A stretch of DNA of 64,000 nt from assembly GCA_944322025.1 (NCBI GenBank), contig CALUOH010000009.1, positions 62,001 to 126,000 of the forward strand, given 5' to 3'. The stretch is from an uncultured Bacteroidales bacterium. GTDB lineage: Bacteria > Bacteroidota > Bacteroidia > Bacteroidales > Paludibacteraceae. Position numbers and translations under genes: made by a program. The notes beneath the pieces are model-generated. The model saw only the letters and a list, made by a program, of their open reading frames with translations, did not search any database and was not told the origin of the DNA. Positions 4,401 through 60,178 of this stretch are shown in pieces (the stretch's first letter is position 1; every line of letters starts with the position of its first letter).

Positions 4401-5769
4401 GTATCAGGTCGTAGTAGGCCGTTTGGCTGAGGCGCGTATAGTTGACCCCAATCACAATGTTGTACTTACAACTCAAAATATACCTTACGGATCTAAACTG
4501 TTCGTTAAAAACGGTTCGGAAGTCCACAAGGGCGATAAGATATGCGAATGGGATCCGTTTAATGCGGTTATTGTGTCTGAGGTCAACGGTAAGATTGAGT
4601 TTGAATCGATGATAGAGAACGTGACGTACAAGGTTGAAGCCGATGAGACTACCGGTCTGCGCGAGAAGATTATCATCGAGTCGAAAGACAAGACTAAGGT
4701 ACCCTCGGCTCATATTGTAGATTCTAACGGTAATGTTCTCCGCACTTATAATCTGCCAGTGGGAGCTCACGTGGTTCTTGATGAGAAAGCTACTGTCAAG
4801 ACGGGAGATTTCCTTGTGAAGATACCGCGTGCTGTCGGTAAAGCAGGTGATATAACGGGTGGTCTGCCACGTGTTACTGAGCTATTCGAGGCGCGTAATC
4901 CGTCTAATCCTGCAGTCGTGGCCGAGATTGATGGTGAGGTGTCTTTCGGCAAAATCAAGCGCGGTAACCGTGAGATTATTATAACATCAAAGACGGGAGA
5001 GGAGAAGAAATACCTCGTGCAGCTTTCAAAACAGATACTTGTGCAGGAGAACGACTACGTGCGTGCTGGAACTCCGCTTTCTGATGGAGCCGTGACTCCG
5101 TCTGATATCCTCGCGATTAAAGGACCTACAGCAGTACAGGAGTACATTGTCAACGAGGTTCAGGATGTCTACCGGTTGCAGGGTGTGAAAATTAACGACA
5201 AGCACTTTGAGGTTATCGTACGCCAGATGATGCGCAAGGTGCAAATTGAGGATGCTGGCGATACGAGATTCCTTGAAGGACAGGTTGTTGACAAAATTGA
5301 ATTCATAGAAGAGAATGACCGCATGTGGGGCAAGAAAGTTGTAGTTGACGCGGGAGATTCTGAAACTTTTATGAAAGGTCAGATTGTTACTGCCCGTAAG
5401 CTGCGGGATGAGAATAGTATGTTGACACGTAAGGATTTACGTCTTGTCGAGGCACGTGATGCCATGCCAGCTACATCAGTACAGATGTTGCAGGGTATAA
5501 CTCGTGCCGCATTGCAGACAAGTAGTTTTATGTCGGCAGCATCATTCCAAGAGACAACCAAGGTGCTTAATGAGGCGGCAATTAACGGTAAGGTTGATTA
5601 TCTCGAAGGCATGAAAGAGAATGTAATTGTGGGTCATAAGATACCTGCAGGTACAGGTCTACGTGAGTATGACAACTTGATTGTATCGTCTATGGACGAA
5701 CATGAACGTATGTCTGATGCGAGCAAGAATGTAACCGATATCAGCAATATCTCTGATGGAATTAATTGA
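1459..5769 (+). CDS. rpoC: DNA-directed RNA polymerase subunit beta'
   Basis: This is the full-length (1436 aa) beta' subunit, which carries the catalytic magnesium site of RNA polymerase. The N-terminal zinc finger is visible as CHCGKYKRI followed by CDRCGVEV. The absolutely conserved active-site loop [15 protein letters not shown] follows. A second zinc site lies in the later part ([17 protein letters not shown]). The bridge-helix and trigger-loop region appears as [15 protein letters not shown]. Length and order fit Bacteroidetes RpoC. The gene lies 60 bases downstream of rpoB. No terminator is seen directly after the stop; the next promoter starts about 40 bases downstream. Confidence 0.98.
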
Positions 5770-5805
5770 TGCCGGACTTGCATAAATAAAATTATTGATT
5801 GATTG

Positions 5806-5837
5806 TTTGGCAGTTATGACAAATTGTTGTAACTTTG
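5806..5837 (+). promoter_or_regulatory. Bacteroidetes-type promoter for rimP-nusA-infB
   Basis: TTTG at 5806-5809, a 20-base spacer and TAACTTTG at 5830-5837 match the -33/-7 consensus of the Bacteroidetes primary sigma factor. Transcription would begin about 5-7 bases further on, leaving a leader of about 60 bases before rimP. Confidence 0.8.
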
Positions 5838-5856
5838 CTGTCAGAAGTGATGAAAT

Positions 5857-5884
5857 GAGGGGGGCTGATTGGTCCCCCTCTTTC
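5857..5884 (+). promoter_or_regulatory. GC-rich hairpin with short T tract in the rimP leader
   Basis: GAGGGGG at 5857-5863 pairs with CCCCCTC at 5874-5880 and is followed by TTTC. It lies downstream of the apparent rimP promoter. It may therefore terminate rpoC read-through, attenuate the rimP operon, or both. The T tract is short, so termination strength is uncertain. Confidence 0.5.
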
Positions 5885-5906
5885 GTGCCGAAAGTTTAAT
5901 GAAAGT

Positions 5907-6374
5907 ATGATACAAAAGGAGCTGATAGAAGATATAGTGAACAAAAAGCTGGATGGTACGGAATATTTCCTTGTGAATGTTTCTGTATCAGCCGCTAATG
6001 ACATCCTAGTGGAGATTGATAGTGACTATGTTGTTGATATTGATTATTGTGTGGAGTTGAACCGATATATTGAGGAACGTTTGGACCGTGAGTCTGAGGA
6101 TTTTAGTCTTGAGGTAGGTTCAGCGGGACTTACAGCTCCGTTGAAGTTGTTGAGACAATACAGAAAAAACATAGGAAATGAAGTGGAAGTGATATGCAGG
6201 GATGGCAAGAAACATGTTGGCCGGCTTAAACATGTTGGAGAAGAAGCGTTTGTAGTGACGGAAACAAATATGATAAGGAAAGAAGGAGATAAGCGTAAAA
6301 AGCTTTATGAAGAGGATATTGTGTTCGGGTATGACGAAATAAAATCAACAAAATATATAATCAATTGTAAGTAA
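5907..6374 (+). CDS. rimP: Ribosome maturation factor RimP
   Basis: A 155-aa protein of the RimP (DUF150) family, needed for maturation of the 30S subunit. The central segment LEVGSAGLTAPL corresponds to the family motif (usually EVSSPGLDRPL) at the domain boundary. The C-terminal half is the SH3-like beta-rich domain. The gene is immediately followed by nusA with one base between stop and start, the standard rimP-nusA-infB operon. That context makes the assignment secure despite modest sequence conservation. Confidence 0.95.
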   Translation: MIQKELIEDIVNKKLDGTEYFLVNVSVSAANDILVEIDSDYVVDIDYCVELNRYIEERLDRESEDFSLEVGSAGLTAPLKLLRQYRKNIGNEVEVICRDGKKHVGRLKHVGEEAFVVTETNMIRKEGDKRKKLYEEDIVFGYDEIKSTKYIINCK

Positions 6375-6375
6375 A

Positions 6376-7626
6376 ATGGCTAAAACAGAGACCGTAAATC
6401 TTGTCGATACATTTGCCGAGTTTAAGGAACTGAAAAGTATTGACCGTTCGACTTTAATATCGATTTTGGAAGAGTCGTTCAGAAGCGTGATAGCTAAAAT
6501 GTATGGCTCGGACGAAAATTATGATGTTATTATAAATCCGGATAAGGGCGACTGTGAAATATGGCGGACACGCATTGTTGTCGATGATGATGATTTAGAA
6601 GATGAGAATACTCAGATTGCTCTTTCAGAAGCCAAGAAAATAGATGAAGATTATGAGGTGGGGGAAGAGGTGGTAGATGCTGTCGATTTTCTCTCGTTCG
6701 GCCGTCGTGCCGTGCTTAATTTGCGCCAGACGTTGGCCTCCAAGATATTAGAAATACAGAAAGACGGGTTGTATACAAAGTATGCTGATCTAGTTGGACA
6801 GATTGTTACAGGAGAGGTGTATCAAGTGTGGAAAAAGGAGGTGTTGCTTTTGGATGACGACGGAAACGAGATGTTGCTCCCGAAGACAGAGCAGATACCT
6901 CGTGACTTCTATCGTAAGGGAGATTCTGTACGTGCTGTTGTGTTGAGAGTTGACAATAAGAACAATAATCCAAAGATATATCTTTCTCGCACATCACCCA
7001 TGTTTCTAGAACGTCTGTTTGAACTTGAAGTGCCAGAGATTCACGATGGGCTTATAACGATAAAGAAAGTGGTGCGTATACCGGGAGAGAGAGCCAAGGT
7101 GGCAGTAGAATCGTTTGATGACAGGATTGACCCAGTCGGAGCATGTGTCGGCATGAAGGGGGCGCGTATCCACGGCATCGTGCGCGAGCTGAAAAACGAA
7201 AATATAGATGTGGTGAATTATACGTCTAATGTGAGCCTGCTGATTACAAGAGCGTTGAGTCCTGCAAAGGTACAGACAATAGAGATGGACGATGAGAATA
7301 GAAGAGCTAACGTTTTCTTAAAACCAGAGGATATATCTTTGGCGATAGGCAAGAACGGAAATAACATAAAGCTCGCCACTATGCTTACCGGATATACGAT
7401 TGATGTTTTCCGTAACGATGCTGAGATTGACGAGGAGGATATATATATCGATGAATTCAACGATGAGATAGACTCATGGATAATTGATGTGCTTAAAGGC
7501 ATAGGGTGTGATACAGCGAAAAGTGTGCTCAATATTCCACGCGAGGAGCTTATACAGCGTACCGATCTTGAAGAGGAGACTGTGGACGAAGTACTCCGCA
7601 TATTGCAATCAGAGTTTGAGCAATAA
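6376..7626 (+). CDS. nusA: Transcription termination/antitermination factor NusA
   Basis: NusA binds RNA polymerase and nascent RNA and modulates pausing, termination and antitermination. The 416-aa protein has the N-terminal polymerase-binding domain, an S1 domain (GQIVTGEVYQVWKKEVLLLD onwards) and tandem KH domains (VGMKGARIHGIVREL and ISLAIGKNGNNIKLA). It ends with a short acidic helical tail that lacks the duplicated C-terminal repeats of the E. coli protein, as is usual in Bacteroidetes. It sits between rimP and infB and is probably transcribed from the promoter at 5806. Confidence 0.97.
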   Translation: MAKTETVNLVDTFAEFKELKSIDRSTLISILEESFRSVIAKMYGSDENYDVIINPDKGDCEIWRTRIVVDDDDLEDENTQIALSEAKKIDEDYEVGEEVVDAVDFLSFGRRAVLNLRQTLASKILEIQKDGLYTKYADLVGQIVTGEVYQVWKKEVLLLDDDGNEMLLPKTEQIPRDFYRKGDSVRAVVLRVDNKNNNPKIYLSRTSPMFLERLFELEVPEIHDGLITIKKVVRIPGERAKVAVESFDDRIDPVGACVGMKGARIHGIVRELKNENIDVVNYTSNVSLLITRALSPAKVQTIEMDDENRRANVFLKPEDISLAIGKNGNNIKLATMLTGYTIDVFRNDAEIDEEDIYIDEFNDEIDSWIIDVLKGIGCDTAKSVLNIPREELIQRTDLEEETVDEVLRILQSEFEQ

Positions 7627-7733
7627 TGTGCCAATAACACTCTATGGCGGCTATTTTGTTACCAAAGAGAATGACGGCATTAAGTGAGTGACGGATATTT
7701 TGTGTAAAGTAGTTAGACAGAGGATATTATTAT

Positions 7734-10715
7734 ATGGCAAGATTAGGACAGTTAATAAAACAATTGAATATAGGACTGAATACGGCAGTAGAGTTTCTAA
7801 AGAAGAAAGGCTTTGGAGTTGATGGCGGTTCAGTTAATCTTAAACTTACTGAGGAACAGGAGAATGCTCTTATTTCTGAGTTTGGTACGGATGAGGATGT
7901 AAAACGCCGGCAGGAGGCTGTGGTGCGCAAAACCAAGCCTGAGGTTAAGAAGCCCATTGTTGAAGAGATAAAGGTCGCAAGTAGTGTGCCTCACATAAAG
8001 GTAGTCGGAGTGGTAGATTTGGAACAACAGACAGGGAAGCATACCTTTAATAAGTCCGTTGAATCACGGATGGATAAGCCTGCGGAGGCTAAGACCGAAG
8101 AACATAATATTGCTACAGAGACTACAGATGTCGAACGTCAATCGAAGTCGGAAGTAGCGGTAAGTGTGCCTGATGCTGAAAATAAAACAGTGGAGAGCAA
8201 GCCTGCTATGTCCGTTAGAACTGCTTCTGAACAAGAGATGCATACAGAGCGTGTTCTTAGTGTAGAGCATGCCAAGAAAGATGTCTCCAATGGAGAGAAG
8301 AAAGAGTTTCCCAAAAACCAATTGCCAGATAATAAAGAAAATGAAGAGAGGAAGGATAAGGTTGTGAAACCTGAATCAATTACAGATGTGGTTAAACAAG
8401 AGGATGCCGTTCGTCAGTCGGTAGAAAAAAAGGAGGAAGAGATATTCAAGATTGAGAATACTGTTAAAGCTCAGATTAAAGTCATAGATAAAATAGACCT
8501 GTCCGCTATAAACAATTCAACCCGTCCTGCCAAAAAGAGCAGAGAGGAGAAGCGCAAGGAGCGCAATGCCATAGATGAGAGACGTAGACAGCAGAACAAT
8601 AAGGGTGGGAATACGCCGCAAGTAGCTTTAGTCAGTGATGCAGAAAAAAGCAGTAAACCTAAGGCGGATGCGGAGACCAGTGATGTACAGAAGAAAAAAC
8701 GTAAGCGCATCGGCGGTGAGAAAGTAGATGTTAACAAGGTGTTCAATGCCCCTAATAAACAGGGCAGCAAGAGGGTGCATTCAAAGCATCAGATACATAT
8801 TCCACAGGTGAATGAAGAGGATGTGGCGAAACAGGTGAAGGAGACACTTGCCCGTCTTACAGAAGGAAACAAAGGAGCTAAAAAAGGTGCGAAATACAGG
8901 AAAGAGAAGCGGGAAGCGAACATGCAGCGTATGCAGGCAGAGGTGGCGGCAGAGAGAGCGGAGGCAACTGTGCTTAAACTCACGGAGTTTGTTACTGCTA
9001 ATGAACTTGCTGCCATGATGAATGTGCCTGTGACACAGATTATACAGACATGTTTTAACCTTGGGCTTTTCGTTTCGATAAATCAGCGTCTTGATGCTGA
9101 GACTATTAATATCGTGGCAGACGAATTTGGATTCAAGACAGAGTTTGTAAGTGCGGAAGTGGTCAATGCAATACAGGAAGAGGCGGACAAGGAGGAAGAC
9201 CTTGTGCCGCGTCCTCCGATTGTTACGGTAATGGGACATGTCGACCATGGTAAGACATCTTTGCTTGACTATATCCGAAAGTCGAATGTTATAGCCGGCG
9301 AGGCAGGCGGAATTACGCAGCATATAGGTGCGTACAATGTGACGCTTGATGACGGGCGACACATAACATTCCTTGATACACCGGGTCATGAGGCATTCAC
9401 TGCCATGCGTGCCCGTGGTGCGAGGGTGACAGATATTGCCATAATTATTGTTGCTGCGGATGATAACGTGATGCCGCAGACTGTGGAGGCAATAAACCAT
9501 GCTTCGGCTGCCGGAGTTCCTATAGTGTTTGCCATAAACAAGATAGATAAGCCCAATGCCAATCCGGAGAAAATCAAAGAGGAGTTGGCTAATATGAATT
9601 ACCTCGTTGAGGACTGGGGTGGTAAATATCAGTCGCAGGAGATTTCTGCAAAGAAAGGAATCGGTGTGCCGGAATTGCTTGAAAAAGTTCTTCTGGAGGC
9701 AGAACTGCTTGACCTTAAAGCTAATCCGAACAGGAAGGCGACAGGGTCTGTCATAGAGTCCTCTTTGGATAAGGGGCGTGGGTATGTTGCCACGGTTCTT
9801 GTGAATAACGGTACGTTGAAAGTTGGCGATGTGATGTTGGCCGGTACATCTTATGGACGTATCAAGGCAATGTTCAATGAACGTAACCAGCGTATCAAAC
9901 AGGCCGGGCCGTCAGAGCCTGTTCTTGTGCTTGGACTCAACGGAGCGCCACAAGCAGGGGATAACTTTAATATTTTCGATGAGGAACATGAGGCGCGTGA
10001 GTTGGCGAACAAGCGCGAACAGCTGGCGCGCGAGCAGAGTCTGCGCACATCAAAGCATTTGACCTTAGACGAGATAGGCCGCCGTATAGCACTCGGCAAT
10101 TTCCAAGAGCTGAATGTCATAGTGAAAGGTGATGTGGACGGTTCTATTGAGGCACTTTCGGATTCGCTCCTGAAGCTCTCGACAGAAGAGATACAGGTCA
10201 ATGTCATCCATAAGGCTGTCGGTCAGATTTCGGAGTCGGATGTCATGCTCGCAGCCGCATCTAATGCCATTATCGTGGGCTTCCAAGTACGTCCGTCGCT
10301 CGGGGCGCGTAAACTCGCTGAAAAGGAGGAGATAGATATACGTCTCTACTCAATAATATATGATGCGATAGAGGAGCTGAAAGCCGCAATGGAAGGAATG
10401 CTTGCGCCGGAGATTAAGGAAGAGGTGGTAGGTACACTGGAGATACGCGAGATATTCAAGATTGCCAAAGTAGGTACTATCGCCGGATGTATGGTCAAGG
10501 AGGGCAAGGTAAAACGTACAAGCAAGGTGCGTCTCATACGCGACGGTATTGTGATATATACGGGTGAACTCGCTTCTCTGAAACGAATGAAGGACGATGT
10601 TAAGGAGGTGAACTCCGGATACGAGTGCGGTCTGAACATAGCCAATTACAATGATATACGCATCGGCGATATAGTAGAGGCTTATGACGAGGTAGAGGTG
10701 AAGAAAACGCTTTAA
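7734..10715 (+). CDS. infB: Translation initiation factor IF-2
   Basis: IF-2 is the GTPase that places initiator tRNA on the 30S subunit. The 993-aa protein starts with an IF2_N helix-rich module ([20 protein letters not shown]). A long, charged, poorly conserved Lys/Glu-rich linker runs to roughly residue 410, followed by a second IF2_N module. The G domain begins near residue 500 with [15 protein letters not shown] (G1); DTPGHEAF (G3) and NKIDKPNA (G4) follow. The C-terminal half carries domains II-IV. The gap of about 107 bases after nusA contains no clear promoter. The long linker is normal for Bacteroidetes. Confidence 0.98.
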
Positions 10716-54105: not shown

Positions 54106-55656
54106 ATGGGACTGCTGGTCTATAAATTTTCTGATTATGAATATACTGCCGAAAGAGAACAGTACAGAAACCTGTGCAAACAGCTGCAATCCTACTATGG
54201 GTCTAAGGATGAACTGTGTATATTCATAGCAAACTACAATATATACGACTGTGAGCTTGACGGGCTGCTGATAAAGCAGGATTCGATATTGGTTGTTGAG
54301 TTTAAGAATTACGGCGGGTGTGTGACAGCTGTGGATAACGGCGAATGGAAGTTGAGCGATGGTACTGTCATAAAAGGAGGTTCACGTAAAACGCTGTATA
54401 AACAGATACACATAAACCATGCGATGGTGAGGGGCGGACTGAAAGACGGTAATGTCATAACCTCAAAATCAGCCAGTGGCATTGCTGCCCTTGTGGTGTT
54501 TCACCAGCCAATCACACTTGACAATAAGTTGTCTGCCAGAACGCGCAGCTGGCTACATGTCTGTGACGAGACCACCTTTATGGAGAAGGTTCAGGACATA
54601 ACGAGCAAGTCGATAGAGTTCAACAGGCGGGATATGTTCTCCATTATTGAAAAGATGGCTCTTGACAGGGATTATCTCGACGAGACGTACAGCAATGCGG
54701 AGATTTTGGACGAGAGACCGCAGGATGAGGAGGAAGAGACGCTGTGTCCTGATGTTCCGCAGGAAAAGAGTGGGGAAACAACGGAAGGACAATCCGTGCT
54801 AACTGCACAAAGCGGTACGCCCGCAGCCGAGACGGAAAATGAGCCGGAGGCAGGGCGGGATATGCAGAATACGTGCACACTGCCTAAATGGTTGGATGAC
54901 TATATTTTCAATGAATTAGGAGCAAAATACTGCCGCTCCAATTCGGACATGACCGTGATAGACTGGGACAAGAGCGATGTCCTCAATTATCTCGGCACAT
55001 ACTTTCCCCGCAGTTATACCGAGGCGTACTGCATATTCAGCGAATATTTTTCCAGACATAAGAGAGAGTGGGCGGATAAGGAGACGCTGTCAGTGTTTGA
55101 TTTCGGATGCGGGACAGGCGGGGAGATAATAGGGATGGCCATGGCGGCGAAAGAACAATTGCCGTGGATAGATAAAATAACAGGGATAGCGTTAGACGGA
55201 AACCATCATGCCTTACGGATATACAGTGCTATCGAGAAGACTGCATCGGACAATATAGGGATTTCAATAGGACTCACTGTCGCACCGACCACGATATGTA
55301 ATTTCTATGACTTGTCGGTGGTTTCTGAAATAGTAGACCGTAAGTTTGATATAATCATGTCGTTCAAGGCAATTTGTGAGTTCGTGACTAAGGAGCGGTT
55401 TGAACAGGAGAATGCCTACCGATATATCTCATCGGTCTTATTTCCAAAGCTGAATGACGGGGGCATTATGCTTATGGTGGATGTATCTACGTATAACAAT
55501 ACGTTGAAAGAGTGGCTACCTATAATGATGGATAAAGGTTTTGCTATGTATAATATTGTTGGACGTAATGACGGATTTAACCAATGTTTTTATGTGAGCC
55601 ACTCGATGTCATACATGGACACAAGCAAAGTGGCATGGAGACTTATGAAACGGTAA
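54106..55656 (+). CDS. NERD nuclease-SAM methyltransferase fusion protein
   Basis: A 516-aa two-domain protein. From ATG 54106 (MGLLVYKFSDYEYTAEREQY) the first ~190 residues form a NERD (nuclease-related) PD-(D/E)xK-like domain with Asp52 in ELDGLLI and Glu65-x-Lys67 in VVEFKNYGG. A charged linker (about 220-270) leads to a SAM-dependent methyltransferase with motif I FDFGCGTGG near residue 331 and FDIIMSFKAICEF further on. The frame is open 67 codons further upstream but without NERD similarity. It is the first gene of a three-gene AT-rich set with a helicase. Methyl acceptor and nuclease activity are unproven; the fusion suggests DNA or RNA processing in defence or repair. Confidence 0.8.
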   Translation: MGLLVYKFSDYEYTAEREQYRNLCKQLQSYYGSKDELCIFIANYNIYDCELDGLLIKQDSILVVEFKNYGGCVTAVDNGEWKLSDGTVIKGGSRKTLYKQIHINHAMVRGGLKDGNVITSKSASGIAALVVFHQPITLDNKLSARTRSWLHVCDETTFMEKVQDITSKSIEFNRRDMFSIIEKMALDRDYLDETYSNAEILDERPQDEEEETLCPDVPQEKSGETTEGQSVLTAQSGTPAAETENEPEAGRDMQNTCTLPKWLDDYIFNELGAKYCRSNSDMTVIDWDKSDVLNYLGTYFPRSYTEAYCIFSEYFSRHKREWADKETLSVFDFGCGTGGEIIGMAMAAKEQLPWIDKITGIALDGNHHALRIYSAIEKTASDNIGISIGLTVAPTTICNFYDLSVVSEIVDRKFDIIMSFKAICEFVTKERFEQENAYRYISSVLFPKLNDGGIMLMVDVSTYNNTLKEWLPIMMDKGFAMYNIVGRNDGFNQCFYVSHSMSYMDTSKVAWRLMKR

Positions 55657-55689
55657 ACGATAACAATAAATAATAAAAAGTAATTTGAT

Positions 55690-56724
55690 ATGGCAGATTT
55701 TGATTCAGAATTTTTCATCGACTATTCAAGTCTCGATGATTTTCAACGGCAACTGATAGACCGTAAGAGTGAAAGGTCAATGGTTGTAGTCGGCAGCGCG
55801 GGAAGCGGCAAATCGCTAATTGCCTTGCATAAGGCAAAACAAATAGCTGCTATGGGGCAGGATTACGCCATAGTTGTCTATACAAAGACACTCCGTCAAT
55901 ATTTTGATGACGGACTTAAAGCTCTTGGCCTAAAAAATGTATATAACTGGCACGATTGGTGCAGGAATAGAAGGCATGTGAAGTATCTGATTGTAGACGA
56001 GTGTCAAGATTTTTCTTCTGGTGAGATTGATTCGTTAATAAGAAGCGGCGATATATGTTTCTTTTTCGGCGATTCTGCCCAGTCCATCATGGCTTTCAGA
56101 GACGAGGGCGTACAGAATGTGGAGACTACCGCTTATAAAATGAAGATAACACCAGACAAATTATATTACAATTATCGACTGACTAAACCGGTAGCTGAAC
56201 TTGCAGAACAAGTGGGTCAAGTGGATGATGACCTCGTGATTAAATGCAAACGGAAAGGGGTCAAACCACGTTTGATAGAAGCGTCGTCTTTTGACGGACA
56301 ATTGGACAAGATTGCCAATATTATCAGAAACGGTTCGCTTACAAATGTCGGCATATTGCTGCCATTTAACACAAAAGATAAGGGCCACATGTCTGTTGAA
56401 TATGTAAAAAACTATTTGTTGAATAGGGGTATAACATGTGAATTTAAGTATAATGCAAATCAAACTACGGAAATGGATTTGGACTTTCATACTTCAAATC
56501 CTAAAATCATGACGTGGTGGTGTGCGAAAGGATTGCAGTTTAAGGATGTGTTCATTCCCGGCTGTGAAAATCCGTTCCATTCGGACAAACGCGCACCGAT
56601 GTATGTGGCAATGACGCGTTGCAGTGAACGGTTGTATTTGGGATATAGCGGGAGACTGAATTCGTTCTTTCCAGATAGTTCGTCTCCATTGTATGAAAGA
56701 TTATCAGAAGTAACCAAGATATAA
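55690..56724 (+). CDS. Compact superfamily 1 (UvrD-like) helicase
   Basis: A 344-aa P-loop ATPase with SF1 helicase motifs in order. Q-motif-like FQRQLIDRKSE is followed by Walker A GSAGSGKS (35-42), Walker B VDECQDF, motif III FFGDSAQSI, motif IV-like YYNYRLTKP, motif V AKGLQFKDVFIPG and motif VI YVAMTRCSERL. It is far shorter than UvrD or Rep and lacks the 1B and 2B insertions, so it probably needs a partner. It begins 33 bases after the NERD-methyltransferase gene and ends 12 bases before the next gene. NERD domains fused to UvrD-type helicases are known, which fits a split version here. Confidence 0.85.
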   Translation: MADFDSEFFIDYSSLDDFQRQLIDRKSERSMVVVGSAGSGKSLIALHKAKQIAAMGQDYAIVVYTKTLRQYFDDGLKALGLKNVYNWHDWCRNRRHVKYLIVDECQDFSSGEIDSLIRSGDICFFFGDSAQSIMAFRDEGVQNVETTAYKMKITPDKLYYNYRLTKPVAELAEQVGQVDDDLVIKCKRKGVKPRLIEASSFDGQLDKIANIIRNGSLTNVGILLPFNTKDKGHMSVEYVKNYLLNRGITCEFKYNANQTTEMDLDFHTSNPKIMTWWCAKGLQFKDVFIPGCENPFHSDKRAPMYVAMTRCSERLYLGYSGRLNSFFPDSSSPLYERLSEVTKI

Positions 56725-56736
56725 TGTGATTAGATT

Positions 56737-59136
56737 ATGAAGTATTATATAGCAACATCAAGCCTGAATATGGACAATATATTGTCCACAGAGAGCATAT
56801 CGCCCGTTTCATTTTATAAACAACGTGATTTCGGATATGATGTATTCCAAAAGATAGAACAATTGCCTTATGATAATTTTTTAGTTCTGTTTTCGGAGCT
56901 TCCGCATTTTAGCATACATGATAGTCAGCGGGAGAATCACCCTATGGTTTTACAGATAGAGGATGATGAACAGCTGCAAGATGTCAAGAAAGTCGGCGAG
57001 TTTAAGGGGTGTCAGATATTTGTGTATTACAAGACGATATATCTCAATCCGACAAACTGCAAGCTGCTGTTTTTCTCGCGTCAGGCGGAAGTCCTGTTGA
57101 ATCACAGCTGCTCTGACAGCAAAATGAGCAAACTGGTGGATTATTTCACAACCAAGACTGTGGAACCGGGCAGATACAGGTTAGAGGATTTGGTGACGGG
57201 AGTGCCGTATGATGCCGAAAAGTATCCGGAGAGGTCAAGTGAGAATGCGTATGACAAGGTGAAGGGGTTTGTCTGCGGGTATTATATCGGTGCTGTGCAA
57301 TCATTGCCGTCTGATATAGCCCGCATGTATGCGATACAGAAACGGGTGTATGACATTGCGGTTTCAATAAAGAACAATGATGGAAAGCGCAATGCTATTT
57401 TTAATGAGGAGTTGGAGCGTCTAAGCAGAGAGTATGACAGCCTTGACCCAGACAAAAAAGAGGCGCAAAGGTTGTGGAAAGAGAGCTTTACAGGATATAG
57501 ATTTCCGGAGGAGATTCTGAAATATCTTAAAGTGAATAAATTGGAAGGAGTTGCCAAATGTGTATTTGTCAAGCAGCAAGGGTTGATTTTACGTACCCAG
57601 ACGATTACTAATTTACAGGCGTATAGTGATGAGCTTAAAATACATATCCAGTCTTTGATATTGAAGAGCAATGAGAAGAACAGGAAATTTAGCATAAAAG
57701 AGCAATTGGACCTTAGCCCGGATTACTCTAATGTAATGATGTACGGGAGCGATGAAGGGAGCAGACTGTTTAACAGTGTGTTGCAGAATGTATTGTGGAG
57801 GGGGTTAATTCCCAGTTTGGATAGACTACGCACGGACAGGGAGAATATAGCTACGCAAGTGGTTATACAGTTGAAAGAGATAGTGGAACGGAATAAAGGC
57901 CAATGGCAAGACAGTAAGGAGCAGATGTATTTTCAGCATTTGAGGGAGAATATATCCATGTTCTCGGAGTTTAAGCTGACGGAAATAGATGATGTAGTGA
58001 TGCAATCAGTGGCAGCGTTTCTGTTAAAAGGAGAGGATTATGACGGACTGATGAGCTATTTGAGGGCAAATGCTATCCCGACATATCAATATGCGCTGGC
58101 TTTATGGGGAGCTGTTTCAGGGTATGTGAGAATACCCCGGACGATAATACACGGACTAATGGGCAGGGAGATGTTTGAATCTTTTTATGTAGATTTGTAC
58201 AGCGTACTGTATGGGAGAACGCTGAAAGGAAAATTGGAGAAAAAGGAGGTTCTTATGCCTCCGATGCCTCCGAAGCCAGACGATTATAGAGGGGGGAAGA
58301 GTGAAACGATGCAGAAAGGCTCAAATAAGGGCAGATTCGGCATTTCAGGGAGTGTTGAAGCGGCAAAGGATACGGGATTTGATGGAGAAAAGGGTTTTGT
58401 TGGAGACCCGAAAGGAAAAATATTGCCCAAAGAACGTAAAATTGACGAAAGGAACTTCGGGAACTTGAAAATGAAGGAGAGCTGTCCGTATGAAAGGGGT
58501 GTTGCAGTACAGAAGGAGGATTATAGAGCAGAAGTTGAGCAAATATGTGACGACATGAAGAGTAGTGGAATACTTGATGTGGAGAAGGAGCATAGGTTGA
58601 AAGAAGTGTTGGCCAGATGTAATGATAAGAATACTTTTCTTAAAGAATTACATAAAGAAAAGGGGTGGAAGGGTAATTCCAAATTGTATAAGAAGATGGA
58701 AGAAAGACTTAATGGGCAGAAGAGCAGTAATGACAGATATGATAAGGGAGAACTGCAATTGTCGTTTGATGCACCACGAGCGGATTACAAAGATGAGAAT
58801 AGAGTGATGCGTCAAGAGGATAATATAGTCAGTTGCAGTATATTGAGGGATAAGAAAGTTGCGGCTGTTGTGCGAGATTGGATATGGAAGAGAGCACCAC
58901 GGATAAGTGAGAATGTGAACAAACTGTTTGCTAAGTTTTATAAAGAGTATAATGATAAGGATGGGTTTTATTACAACAAACGTAGTCAGTACGACAGAAC
59001 CAAGAATGGTGCCGTAATAGATCATTTTATTCGGTTTTGTTTTAAGCCTTGGGGTGGTGTGAATGGCCTATCAGTAGAGTATAGTGAAGTAATGGATGAG
59101 TTGAAACAATATTTAATGAGTATGTATCGTGACTGA
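56737..59136 (+). CDS. Large protein of unknown function in the NERD-helicase operon
   Basis: A 799-aa cytoplasmic protein I do not recognise. An N-terminal globular domain (about 1-130, MKYYIATSSLNMDNILSTES, LLFFSRQAEVLLNHSCS) is followed by a long helical region (about 150-500). A basic, Gly/Lys/Pro-rich disordered segment (about 505-600, MPPMPPKPDDYRGGK and onward) and a C-terminal helical domain (about 690-799) complete it. No nuclease, NTPase or membrane motif was found. It overlaps the next gene by 8 bases. Its tight linkage to a helicase and a nuclease-methyltransferase suggests a sensor, scaffold or target-recognition subunit of the same system. Base composition is clearly AT-richer than the window average. 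Confidence 0.75.
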   Translation: MKYYIATSSLNMDNILSTESISPVSFYKQRDFGYDVFQKIEQLPYDNFLVLFSELPHFSIHDSQRENHPMVLQIEDDEQLQDVKKVGEFKGCQIFVYYKTIYLNPTNCKLLFFSRQAEVLLNHSCSDSKMSKLVDYFTTKTVEPGRYRLEDLVTGVPYDAEKYPERSSENAYDKVKGFVCGYYIGAVQSLPSDIARMYAIQKRVYDIAVSIKNNDGKRNAIFNEELERLSREYDSLDPDKKEAQRLWKESFTGYRFPEEILKYLKVNKLEGVAKCVFVKQQGLILRTQTITNLQAYSDELKIHIQSLILKSNEKNRKFSIKEQLDLSPDYSNVMMYGSDEGSRLFNSVLQNVLWRGLIPSLDRLRTDRENIATQVVIQLKEIVERNKGQWQDSKEQMYFQHLRENISMFSEFKLTEIDDVVMQSVAAFLLKGEDYDGLMSYLRANAIPTYQYALALWGAVSGYVRIPRTIIHGLMGREMFESFYVDLYSVLYGRTLKGKLEKKEVLMPPMPPKPDDYRGGKSETMQKGSNKGRFGISGSVEAAKDTGFDGEKGFVGDPKGKILPKERKIDERNFGNLKMKESCPYERGVAVQKEDYRAEVEQICDDMKSSGILDVEKEHRLKEVLARCNDKNTFLKELHKEKGWKGNSKLYKKMEERLNGQKSSNDRYDKGELQLSFDAPRADYKDENRVMRQEDNIVSCSILRDKKVAAVVRDWIWKRAPRISENVNKLFAKFYKEYNDKDGFYYNKRSQYDRTKNGAVIDHFIRFCFKPWGGVNGLSVEYSEVMDELKQYLMSMYRD

Positions 59137-60178
59137 GAAAGTGATTATAACGACGGACGGGGGAGAGAGGGTTGAGGCGGCGGCACCGGTGGTGGTGTCG
59201 GCGAGCAGGGCTACGGATATACCGGCGTTTTACGCGAGATGGTTCGTGGAGCGGCTGAGGCGGGGGTATTGTGTGTGGTATAACCCGTTTAACAGGCAGA
59301 AGGTGCATGTGTCGTTCGCGAGGTGCAGGGTTGTGGTGTTCTGGACGAAGAATCCGATGCCTCTGATGCCGTTGCTGAGGGAGCTGGACGAGCGGGGGAT
59401 ACACTATTATTTCCAATATACGCTGAATGATTATGAGAGGGAGGGGTTTGAGCCTAATGTGCCGCCGCTGGAGCGTAGGGCGGAGACGTTCAGGGAGCTG
59501 TCGGGGATGGTGGGGAAGGAGAGGGTGATATGGCGGTTTGACCCGCTGATAGTCTCTCCGGAGCTTACTCCGAGGGAACTGCTGAGGCGCGTGTGGCGAG
59601 TCGGGGGGATGATAGAAGGGTATACGGAGAAGCTGGTGTTCAGTTTTGTGGATGTGAGGGCTTACAGGAAGGTGAAGTGCAATATGGCGCGCGAGACCGG
59701 ATGCTTTTCCGCGGACAGTGTGGAGGCGGCCGAGCCGGATGAGGTGCAGAGGGGTGAGATAGTGGAGGGTCTGGCGAGGATGCGCGAGGTGTGGGCCGAG
59801 AGGAGGTGGAATGTGAGGCTGGCTACGTGCGCCGAGGATGTCGATTTGGAGCGTTACGGTATTGAGCATAACCGATGTATTGACGGGGAGCTGATGGAGA
59901 GTGTGTTCGGGGAGGACAGGGCTCTGGTGTATTATCTGCGGACGGGTGTTTGGCCGGAGGCTGATTTGTTCGGGGAGCTGCCGCCGCTGCCTGAGACGAG
60001 GCAGAATTTGAAGGATAAGGGGCAGAGACGTGCGTGCGGCTGTATGATGAGCAAGGATATAGGGATGTACGATACGTGCAGGCATTTCTGTGTGTATTGT
60101 TATGCGAATGCGAGCCGGGAGAGGGTGATGAGGAATGCGGAGAGGCATTCGGAGGGTAGCGAGAGTCTGTTGGAGTGA
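59129..60178 (+). CDS. DUF1848 family protein with cysteine-rich C-terminal cluster
   Basis: A 349-aa protein of the DUF1848 family, of unknown function and distantly radical-SAM-like. The start is GTG 59129, overlapping the previous stop by 8 bases (translational coupling); a second GTG at 59141 is possible. Conserved parts are SASRATDIPAFYARWF, WYNPFNRQKVHVSF, VVFWTKNPMPLMP and VIWRFDPLIVSP. The C-terminus carries Cys residues in ACGCMMSKDIGMYDTCRHFC and VYCYANAS, a plausible iron-sulfur site. Codon use is GC-rich, unlike the AT-rich genes just upstream, so it may be a host gene at the island boundary rather than part of the system. Confidence 0.82.
   Translation: MTEKVIITTDGGERVEAAAPVVVSASRATDIPAFYARWFVERLRRGYCVWYNPFNRQKVHVSFARCRVVVFWTKNPMPLMPLLRELDERGIHYYFQYTLNDYEREGFEPNVPPLERRAETFRELSGMVGKERVIWRFDPLIVSPELTPRELLRRVWRVGGMIEGYTEKLVFSFVDVRAYRKVKCNMARETGCFSADSVEAAEPDEVQRGEIVEGLARMREVWAERRWNVRLATCAEDVDLERYGIEHNRCIDGELMESVFGEDRALVYYLRTGVWPEADLFGELPPLPETRQNLKDKGQRRACGCMMSKDIGMYDTCRHFCVYCYANASRERVMRNAERHSEGSESLLE

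Follow-up and report, generated by a model that had tools for sequence, protein, structure and literature searches.

A four-gene operon with a predicted role in anti-phage defence links a compact SF1 helicase to an ADP-ribosyltransferase-like protein

The window analysed here, a 64,000-nt stretch of DNA from an uncultured Bacteroidales bacterium, carries four closely packed genes on one strand, hereafter M, H, U and D. The genes and their domains are as follows.

54106..55656, + strand: gene M, NERD–methyltransferase (MTase) ORF (ORF call, Pfam NERD)
Gene M residues 1 to ~215, + strand: NERD domain, PD-(D/E)XK-like (Pfam NERD, 9e-7)
Gene M residues ~255–516, + strand: class I MTase domain (motif FDFGCGTGG at 331–339)
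55690..56724, + strand: gene H, compact SF1 helicase ORF, 344 aa (ORF call, Pfam, motifs)
56737..59136, + strand: gene U, 799-aa protein, predicted ART/ARG-like (ORF call, structure model)
56737..57189, + strand: U residues 1–151, predicted DarT/KptA-like ADP-ribosyltransferase (ART) fold (structure comparison)
57238..58218, + strand: U residues 168–494, predicted ADP-ribosylglycohydrolase (ARH3/ARH1/DraG)-like (ARG-like) fold (structure comparison)
58516..59136, + strand: U residues 594–799, helical C-terminal region, interrupted by low-confidence linkers (AF2 model)
59129..60178, + strand: gene D, DUF1848, predicted radical-SAM-like barrel (8-nt overlap with gene U)

Gaps of 33 nt between M and H and of 12 nt between H and U agree exactly with the three tight same-strand genes described in an earlier note on this DNA. 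The start of gene M is placed at the ATG at 54106, backed by homologue N termini (MGLLVYRFSDY and MALLVYKFSDY); further upstream, 53905 holds a GTG in the same frame. The compositional contrast that the note reported also holds, with GC contents of 0.45 (M), 0.41 (H) and 0.41 (U) against 0.54–0.55 on either side, and its counts of 14 and 39 G/C in two 60-nt segments were correct on recounting. The DUF1848 gene has a GC content of 0.58, host-like in the window, and the note had treated it as a flank to a three-gene unit. GC is nevertheless a poor guide to the operon edge here, because a decayed copy in a same-genus genome repeats the split (MTase 0.47, DUF1848 0.57).

Relatives' loci, recovered with an alignment of the helicase as the query, show that the operon normally comprises four genes, M–H–U–D, with DUF1848 as the fourth member rather than a flank. 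The comparison covered 76 non-identical loci and confirms the conserved linkage across genomes that the earlier note had suggested checking. Among these loci, 50 have the order MTase–helicase–U–DUF1848, in most with a U–D overlap of 4–14 nt, and six have the order MTase–DUF1848–helicase–U. The second gene order, the overlaps and the decayed same-genus copy lead us to reject DUF1848 as plain host flank. Five loci with longer, different helicases and no U (L072, L078, L083, L092 and L095) were left out; in one further locus (L084), U is present and an intact helicase is absent. H and U also stand alone, without MTase or NERD, in ten loci. Distance correlations over 46 loci are high for helicase and U (r = 0.77) and for MTase and U (r = 0.70), against permutation maxima of 0.13–0.15. 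DUF1848 distances correlate weakly with those of the helicase and U (r 0.17–0.19), and D may therefore have been recruited repeatedly.

The operon was found in 5 of 150 genomes of the family and is not fixed in close relatives: other same-genus genomes hold no intact copy, and one has the decayed copy, at another place and with DUF1848 in the same order. Its spread is patchy, covering Bacteroidota and single records in Olsenella, Clostridium, Desulfovibrio and Helicobacteraceae. Helicase–U pairs are found inside type I BREX clusters or immediately 5' of HamA–HamB (Hachiman), with PglX, PglZ and BrxL among their neighbours (six loci). Conserved linkage, patchy distribution and these BREX and Hachiman neighbours uphold the view of a horizontally acquired, probable defence system.

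The NERD, FDFGCGTGG and SF1 helicase motifs reported for this DNA are all found at the residues given, including D52 and E65-x-K67 of the NERD domain. NERD is fused to 14 of the 64 MTases of the family and missing from 50, so that it is optional, and conservation lies with the MTase part; the proposal that the nuclease is a defining part is not supported. The amino-DNA-methylase motif [DNS]PP[YFW] (DNA-base MTase motif IV) occurs in 0 of the 64 family MTases, which counts against a restriction–modification logic, and the MTase protein of the window contains no PC dipeptide. A PDB profile search with the MTase gave best matches at chance level, from which a substrate is not inferable. H is a compact SF1 helicase, UvrD/HelD-like, with every motif intact (GSAGSGKS 35, VDECQDF 102, FGDSAQ 126, YNYRL 160, TWWCAKGLQF 275 and VAMTR 306) and Pfam matches to Viral_helicase1 (5e-12) and UvrD_C (1e-7).

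U is large, fast-diverging and missed by both Pfam and PADLOC. The earlier description of the 799-aa protein as unrecognised stands in that it has no Pfam family, but its ART and ARH-like folds are readable from an AF2 model built from 63 sequences (mean pLDDT 84.5). In comparison with known structures, all listed rows with Z of at least 8 are DarT or ARH-family hydrolases, each on its own half of the protein. The ART half matches DarT1 (8baq; Z 9.0, 132 aligned, rmsd 3.3), 7omu (Z 8.7) and Tpt1 (7yw4; Z 6.8), and the ARG half matches 2foz (Z 9.6, 205 aligned, rmsd 4.3); DALI-scale Z values of 8–10 are moderate only. A further comparison has 7omw (probability 0.99) as its top row for the ART half. 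Foldseek E-values for U are weak (best 0.15), and hhalign of U against DarT, ARH and 2CompART gives probabilities of 4–27%, a weak sequence link. From its fold, U is predicted to be a DarT-like ADP-ribosyltransferase followed by an ADP-ribosylglycohydrolase-like domain. Searches returned no Pfam DarT (PF14487) match in U or in the window's genome, no relative of U's N terminus among PDB sequence profiles, no match in a single-sequence back-translation search of genome contigs or in a plasmid search, and no significant match in a viral structure library.

Residues Y4, N11, P23, Y27, R30, G33, K132, G177, G458 and G462 of U are invariant or nearly so. The conserved N11 is in register with the DarT THxxN motif, and R30 is conserved. 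No canonical ART catalytic glutamate is assignable; at position E130, within the SxExK motif, the window protein has M, and just 63% of relatives have an acidic residue. The ARG-like domain seems to lack the metal-binding acids: no conserved acid pair corresponds to the ARH binuclear metal site (GDA.., GxDxDT), the N-terminal GxxxGDA reads GxxxG with the acid missing, and the C-terminal GxDTDT aligns with TYQYA. Zinc ribbons are present in the C-terminal region of U in a few relatives.

In D, a C-terminal CX3CX2C (C317, C321 and C324) is invariant in 44 sequences, and C303 and C305 lie nearby in the chain. Structure comparison returns radical SAM enzymes in all top eight rows (Z 8.1–9.1, rmsd 3.4–6.9), and a PDB sequence-profile search returns no relative of DUF1848. 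The model points to a radical-SAM-like enzyme carrying CX3CX2C on a partial TIM barrel; such an enzyme would be expected to hold a [4Fe-4S] cluster and to cleave SAM. We know of no function for DUF1848, and a literature search found no paper naming it. It is found next to other genes as well.

On balance, and with somewhat better than even confidence, we favour a mobile anti-phage operon that joins helicase-gated, NAD-dependent ADP-ribosylation to an MTase/radical-SAM modification module. The core would be H with U: by contacting or restructuring the nucleic acid of an invader, H may give U its licence to act. The ART of U would draw on NAD+ for the ADP-ribosylation of a target that is a nucleic acid or belongs to replication/transcription, and the ARG-like domain would bind ADP-ribose or restrain the ART in cis. 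M and D may modify nucleic acid or a partner, as a self-mark or to condition the target, and the NERD nuclease in the window copy would be an optional extra effector. A narrower version, which we put forward only tentatively, is a one-protein switch, gated by the helicase, in which a DarT-like transferase is controlled in cis by a catalytically dead ARH regulator and its target is conditioned by the dedicated MTase and radical-SAM enzyme, MTase–DUF1848 being an exchangeable cassette that unrelated defence operons of several kinds share (with reverse transcriptase UG35, AAA ATPase or helicase–ART).

The earlier note had cast the 799-aa protein as a sensor or specificity subunit; its folds better fit an effector or a NAD/ADP-ribose-handling protein. 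A sensor role is less likely than the favoured reading: the ligands of U's ART/ARG-like pockets would be NAD+, ADP-ribose or an ADP-ribosylated molecule that arises on infection, and NERD, the helicase or neighbouring systems would kill. The unassignable glutamate and apparently lost ARH metal ligands speak for it, as do H–U pairs inside BREX clusters that bring their own effectors and the copies with fused NERD. However, KptA-type ARTs function without a catalytic glutamate, most invariant residues (Y4, N11, P23, Y27, R30 and K132) fall in the ART half, as for a used pocket, and the ten H–U pairs have neither NERD nor MTase. That absence of MTase from ten loci also bears on a restriction–modification-like scheme in which M marks self DNA, NERD and helicase cut unmarked phage DNA and U confers specificity. 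The NERD–MTase fusion in the window and the NERD–helicase pairs of known defence families such as Nhi fit such a scheme, but with most family MTases lacking NERD, all lacking the amino-DNA-MTase motif, and ART/ARG folds in U, we regard it as very unlikely.

Somewhat less remote, though still unlikely, is NAD-dependent nucleic-acid repair or RNA processing by a KptA-like ART, helicase, methylase and radical SAM enzyme, sustaining the host or element under attack instead of striking the phage. Tpt1/KptA is among the ART-half matches, and RNA modification commonly employs methylases and radical SAM enzymes; the rare, patchy spread, decay in a sister genome and placement within defence clusters argue the other way. 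That the genes form no system at all, gathered by a mobile-element hotspot beside a resident DUF1848, is scarcely credible: the host-like GC of DUF1848 and its occurrence beside other genes agree with it, but the shared order in 50 loci, the overlaps, the second order with DUF1848 inside and the same-genus remnant contradict it.

The favoured reading assigns a fold and testable chemistry to a protein that Pfam and PADLOC miss, and points to DUF1848, which recurs in defence operons, as a radical-SAM-like enzyme. If the NAD chemistry is confirmed, a helicase would act as the licence for ADP-ribosylation in this route of defence, and there would be a reason for the insertion of helicase–U pairs into BREX clusters.

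The note could not match the full set to a named system, and no PADLOC system model fits these genes. BREX and Hachiman, the neighbours of helicase–U pairs, share zero components with the operon, which is an add-on and not a variant of them. H has SF1 motifs in common with Gabija GajB, Nhi and PADLOC C3a187 (C3a187 1.6e-19, GajB 2e-12), but is shorter (344 versus roughly 470–600 aa) and has no fused NERD, and the operon has no GajA-like (OLD-family ATPase-nuclease) gene. With DRT/UG35 (PADLOC RT_UG35, RTasDUF1848, RTasHel) the likeness lies in DUF1848, which matches RTasDUF1848 (5e-38), and in the MTase of one relative (L051), which matches RT_UG35 residues 52–160 (3.7e-8). However, the four genes include no reverse transcriptase, RT_UG35 is unmatched in the window's genome, and Rfam gives no match at 52.5–61.5 kb, so a DRT-like template RNA has no support from known ncRNA. 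DarTG (DarT1/DarT2 with a DarG macrodomain or NADAR) resembles U in the ART fold of residues 1–151 and in coupling a transferase to an ADP-ribose-handling domain; in U that partner is ARH/DraG-like and fused in cis, the catalytic glutamate is not assignable, and the operon adds helicase, MTase and radical-SAM-like partners.

The closest likeness is to the described 2CompART (PF22546) and 2CompARG (PF22545) pair, in which an ART and then an ARG-like domain share one protein beside an SF1 helicase. PF22546 is not detected in the window's U, and neither family is among the matches listed (best 25 of 84 families, E up to 10) for 63 U relatives, a search in which HMMER filters drop most weak matches. 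The window-type helicase profile matches the helicases of 2CompART operons (E 2e-19 to 2e-30), and in profile comparison with proteins of those operons the ART part at the U N terminus (100 columns) gives E 7e-4 and the helical part E 0.007, against 0.2–0.8 for cross-domain controls. Both families match in a DUF1848–helicase–ART/ARG operon (L183) and a helicase–ART/ARG operon (L182); in another (L176), ordered SF1 helicase–X–MTase–DUF1848, X matches 2CompART (2.9e-6, above the cut-off). These operons can thus include DUF1848 or MTase with DUF1848, as in the window. In contrast to them, U begins straight with the ART, all four genes are usually present and NERD is optional. Because distant helicase and DUF1848/MTase operons hold the pair at U's place, we read U as a diverged member of this class, and the operon is probably a diverged relative of the described 2CompART/2CompARG two-component class.

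The three genes singled out in an earlier note, whose reading frames, gaps, motifs and GC contrast all proved correct on recheck, run directly into a DUF1848 gene on the same strand:

54106..55656 (+), NERD domain fused to a class I methyltransferase (MTase); Pfam NERD, 9e-7
55690..56724 (+), 344-aa SF1 helicase with its full motif set intact
56737..59136 (+), 799-aa protein, hereafter U
59129..60178 (+), DUF1848 protein (Pfam 5e-91), overlapping the U gene by 8 nt

Searches of Pfam, NCBIfam and PADLOC gave no family for U. PADLOC PDC-M16A, a 917-aa candidate defence protein, matches the NERD part (54106-54750) with its first ~208 residues (2.5e-33); the remainder of PDC-M16A is not common to the two proteins.

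Relatives of U occur in 5 of 150 same-family genomes, the window genome included, and in one 'Bacteriophage sp.' contig of unverified origin. Using the helicase alignment as bait, we fetched 80 loci and added two from IMG/VR. Among the 76 non-identical loci with both helicase and U, some truncated at contig ends and some close relatives of one another, the order is MTase–helicase–U–DUF1848 in 50, MTase–DUF1848–helicase–U in 6, helicase–U alone in 10, MTase–helicase–U in 5 plus L012, helicase–U–DUF1848 in 3 and DUF1848–helicase–U in 1; U and DUF1848 overlap by 4, 8 or 14 nt in most loci. The three genes are thus conserved together, but the boundary drawn after them does not hold: gene orders and overlaps make DUF1848 an operon member, and its relocation to a second site inside the operon rules it out as a mere flank gene. 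NERD, earlier taken as a defining part of the system, is fused to just 14 of 64 methyltransferases and is therefore an option. Distances for U correlate with those for the helicase (r 0.77) and the MTase (r 0.70), and the weak correlation of DUF1848 with the other genes (0.17–0.38) suggests that it is swapped more often than they are.

An AF2 model of U (63 homologues, pLDDT 84.5) shows two domains. Residues 1–151 best match the ADP-ribosyltransferase (ART) DarT (8baq, Z 9.0, 132 aligned, rmsd 3.3; also 7omu, 7omv, 7omw and 7yk3), with Tpt1/KptA following, and residues 168–494 match ADP-ribosylhydrolases (ARH3 2foz, Z 9.6, 205 aligned, rmsd 4.3; ARH1; DraG). Among the rows listed, every match with Z >= 8 belongs to the DarT or ADP-ribosylhydrolase families; Foldseek alone was weaker, with DarT on top (E 0.15, probability 0.99). 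When the U profile was compared with the DarT and ARH sequences of related genomes, two short alignments in the correct register resulted, each at least tenfold better than controls. One covers a DarT segment (TSSLNMDNIL with THMDNLNHLF; E 0.01, controls 0.14–0.8), the other the glycine-rich helix near the ARH C-terminus (E 0.0015, controls 0.13–0.7). Core conservation in the ART half falls on Y4, T7, N11, P23, Y27, R30, S128 and K132, and no residue there could be assigned as the catalytic glutamate; the ARH-like half keeps G177, G458 and G462. Because the ARH GxDTDT motif is substituted at the aligned site and the aligned relatives have no conserved acid pair in this half, the second domain is probably a pseudo-hydrolase. 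Four of the 63 aligned relatives carry C-terminal topoisomerase-type zinc ribbons (PF01396, best 2.6e-12), which suggests direct nucleic-acid binding by part of the U family.

The DUF1848 model (pLDDT 94) has radical SAM enzymes as its best eight structural rows (Z 8.1–9.1, rmsd 3.4–6.9; Elp3, SuiB, the sactipeptide thioether enzyme 5why, anSME and SkfB), above a TIM-barrel background of Z 6–7.8. Invariant cysteines form a C-terminal CX3CX2C, and C303 and C305 are likewise invariant. MTase and DUF1848 look like a cassette serving different defence cores: they adjoin an AAA_15 ATPase in L175, DUF1848 matches PADLOC RTasDUF1848 of a reverse-transcriptase-associated set (5e-38), and the MTase of L051 matches RT_UG35 residues 52–160 (3.7e-8). 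The L175 segment (5641-10408) holds the AAA_15/DUF3696 ATPase (PADLOC NsnB, PDC-M55A) and a 294-aa unknown protein. DUF1848 also immediately precedes a ~1,490–1,504-aa DEAD helicase in L067:13598-19150 and in L124:667-7208 (same-genus genome G066), where the helicase is DpdF-like by PADLOC and the other operon genes are absent.

Defence genes recur beside the operon. BREX type I genes (PglX, PglZ and/or BrxL) adjoin L039, L042, L043, L065, L067 and L069, and in L069 the helicase–U pair sits between PglX and PglZ (PADLOC E <= 1e-261 for PglX, PglZ and BrxL). HamA (2e-95) and HamB (2e-235) directly follow U in L045, a HamB-like gene lies two genes downstream in L060, and Schlafen AlbA_2 proteins lie near several loci. 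One of these, a 554-aa protein downstream of DUF1848 (L018:9307-10971) conserved in the related L019, L032 and L055, is possibly a further accessory gene. A 2,640–2,970-aa protein followed by a 625–697-aa helicase recurs in L072:2-11029, L078, L083, L092:963-11017 and L095, apparently as a large defence system in its own right; the large protein combines SF2 DEAD (DpdF-like) and SF1 UvrD/GajB-like helicases in L072 and L092, and the smaller helicase is NERD-fused in L072 and L078.

Inheritance of the operon is patchy. None of eight other same-genus genomes holds an intact copy, and the operon was not found in the hsp20 neighbourhood of the five read there. The same-genus genome G108 retains a decayed copy at a different site, consisting of an MTase fragment (60% identical), 106 aa of the U C-terminus (6e-14) and DUF1848 (77%), with the helicase and most of U lost. 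Since this remnant (MTase 0.47, DUF1848 0.57) shows the GC split of the window operon, the high GC of DUF1848 marks no boundary. By sequence inspection, tyrosine-recombinase-like genes flank the L008 copy on both sides, and a MobA-like relaxase lies upstream in L018, L019 and L056.

In a possible mechanism, the helicase would engage invader nucleic acid and thereby license U, whose ART may use NAD+ to modify a target, either nucleic acid or protein, and whose ARG-like domain could bind ADP-ribose or hold the ART back. The MTase and DUF1848 would modify self or target, and NERD, where present, might contribute extra nuclease.

L176, reached by tracing the methyltransferase through the phylum, is ordered SF1 helicase–X–MTase–DUF1848, and its 624-aa X matches Pfam 2CompART above cut-off (2.9e-6). 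A 2CompART search then gave L182, a helicase followed by an ART/ARG protein, and L183:4270-7760, found in a distantly related genome within the phylum. The latter is a compact relative in which a different nuclease replaces the NERD-MTase, its order being Mrr-like REase–DUF1848–SF1 helicase–2CompART/2CompARG protein. Both ART proteins also match 2CompARG, which Pfam describes as a '2-component system ADP-ribose glycohydrolase domain'. Proteins occupying U's position in related operons thus carry this domain pair, ordered as in U, under curated Pfam names. Neither model is among the matches listed for U; what links it to these proteins is its architecture, genomic context and structure, along with a profile alignment spanning 100 columns (E 7e-4). 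In a literature search that had most subscription papers outside its reach, no paper retrieved names DUF1848 or describes the four-gene set; the existence of the Pfam names implies that a related two-component class has already been described somewhere. A fair label for the window operon is a diverged, expanded variant of the described 2CompART/2CompARG class.
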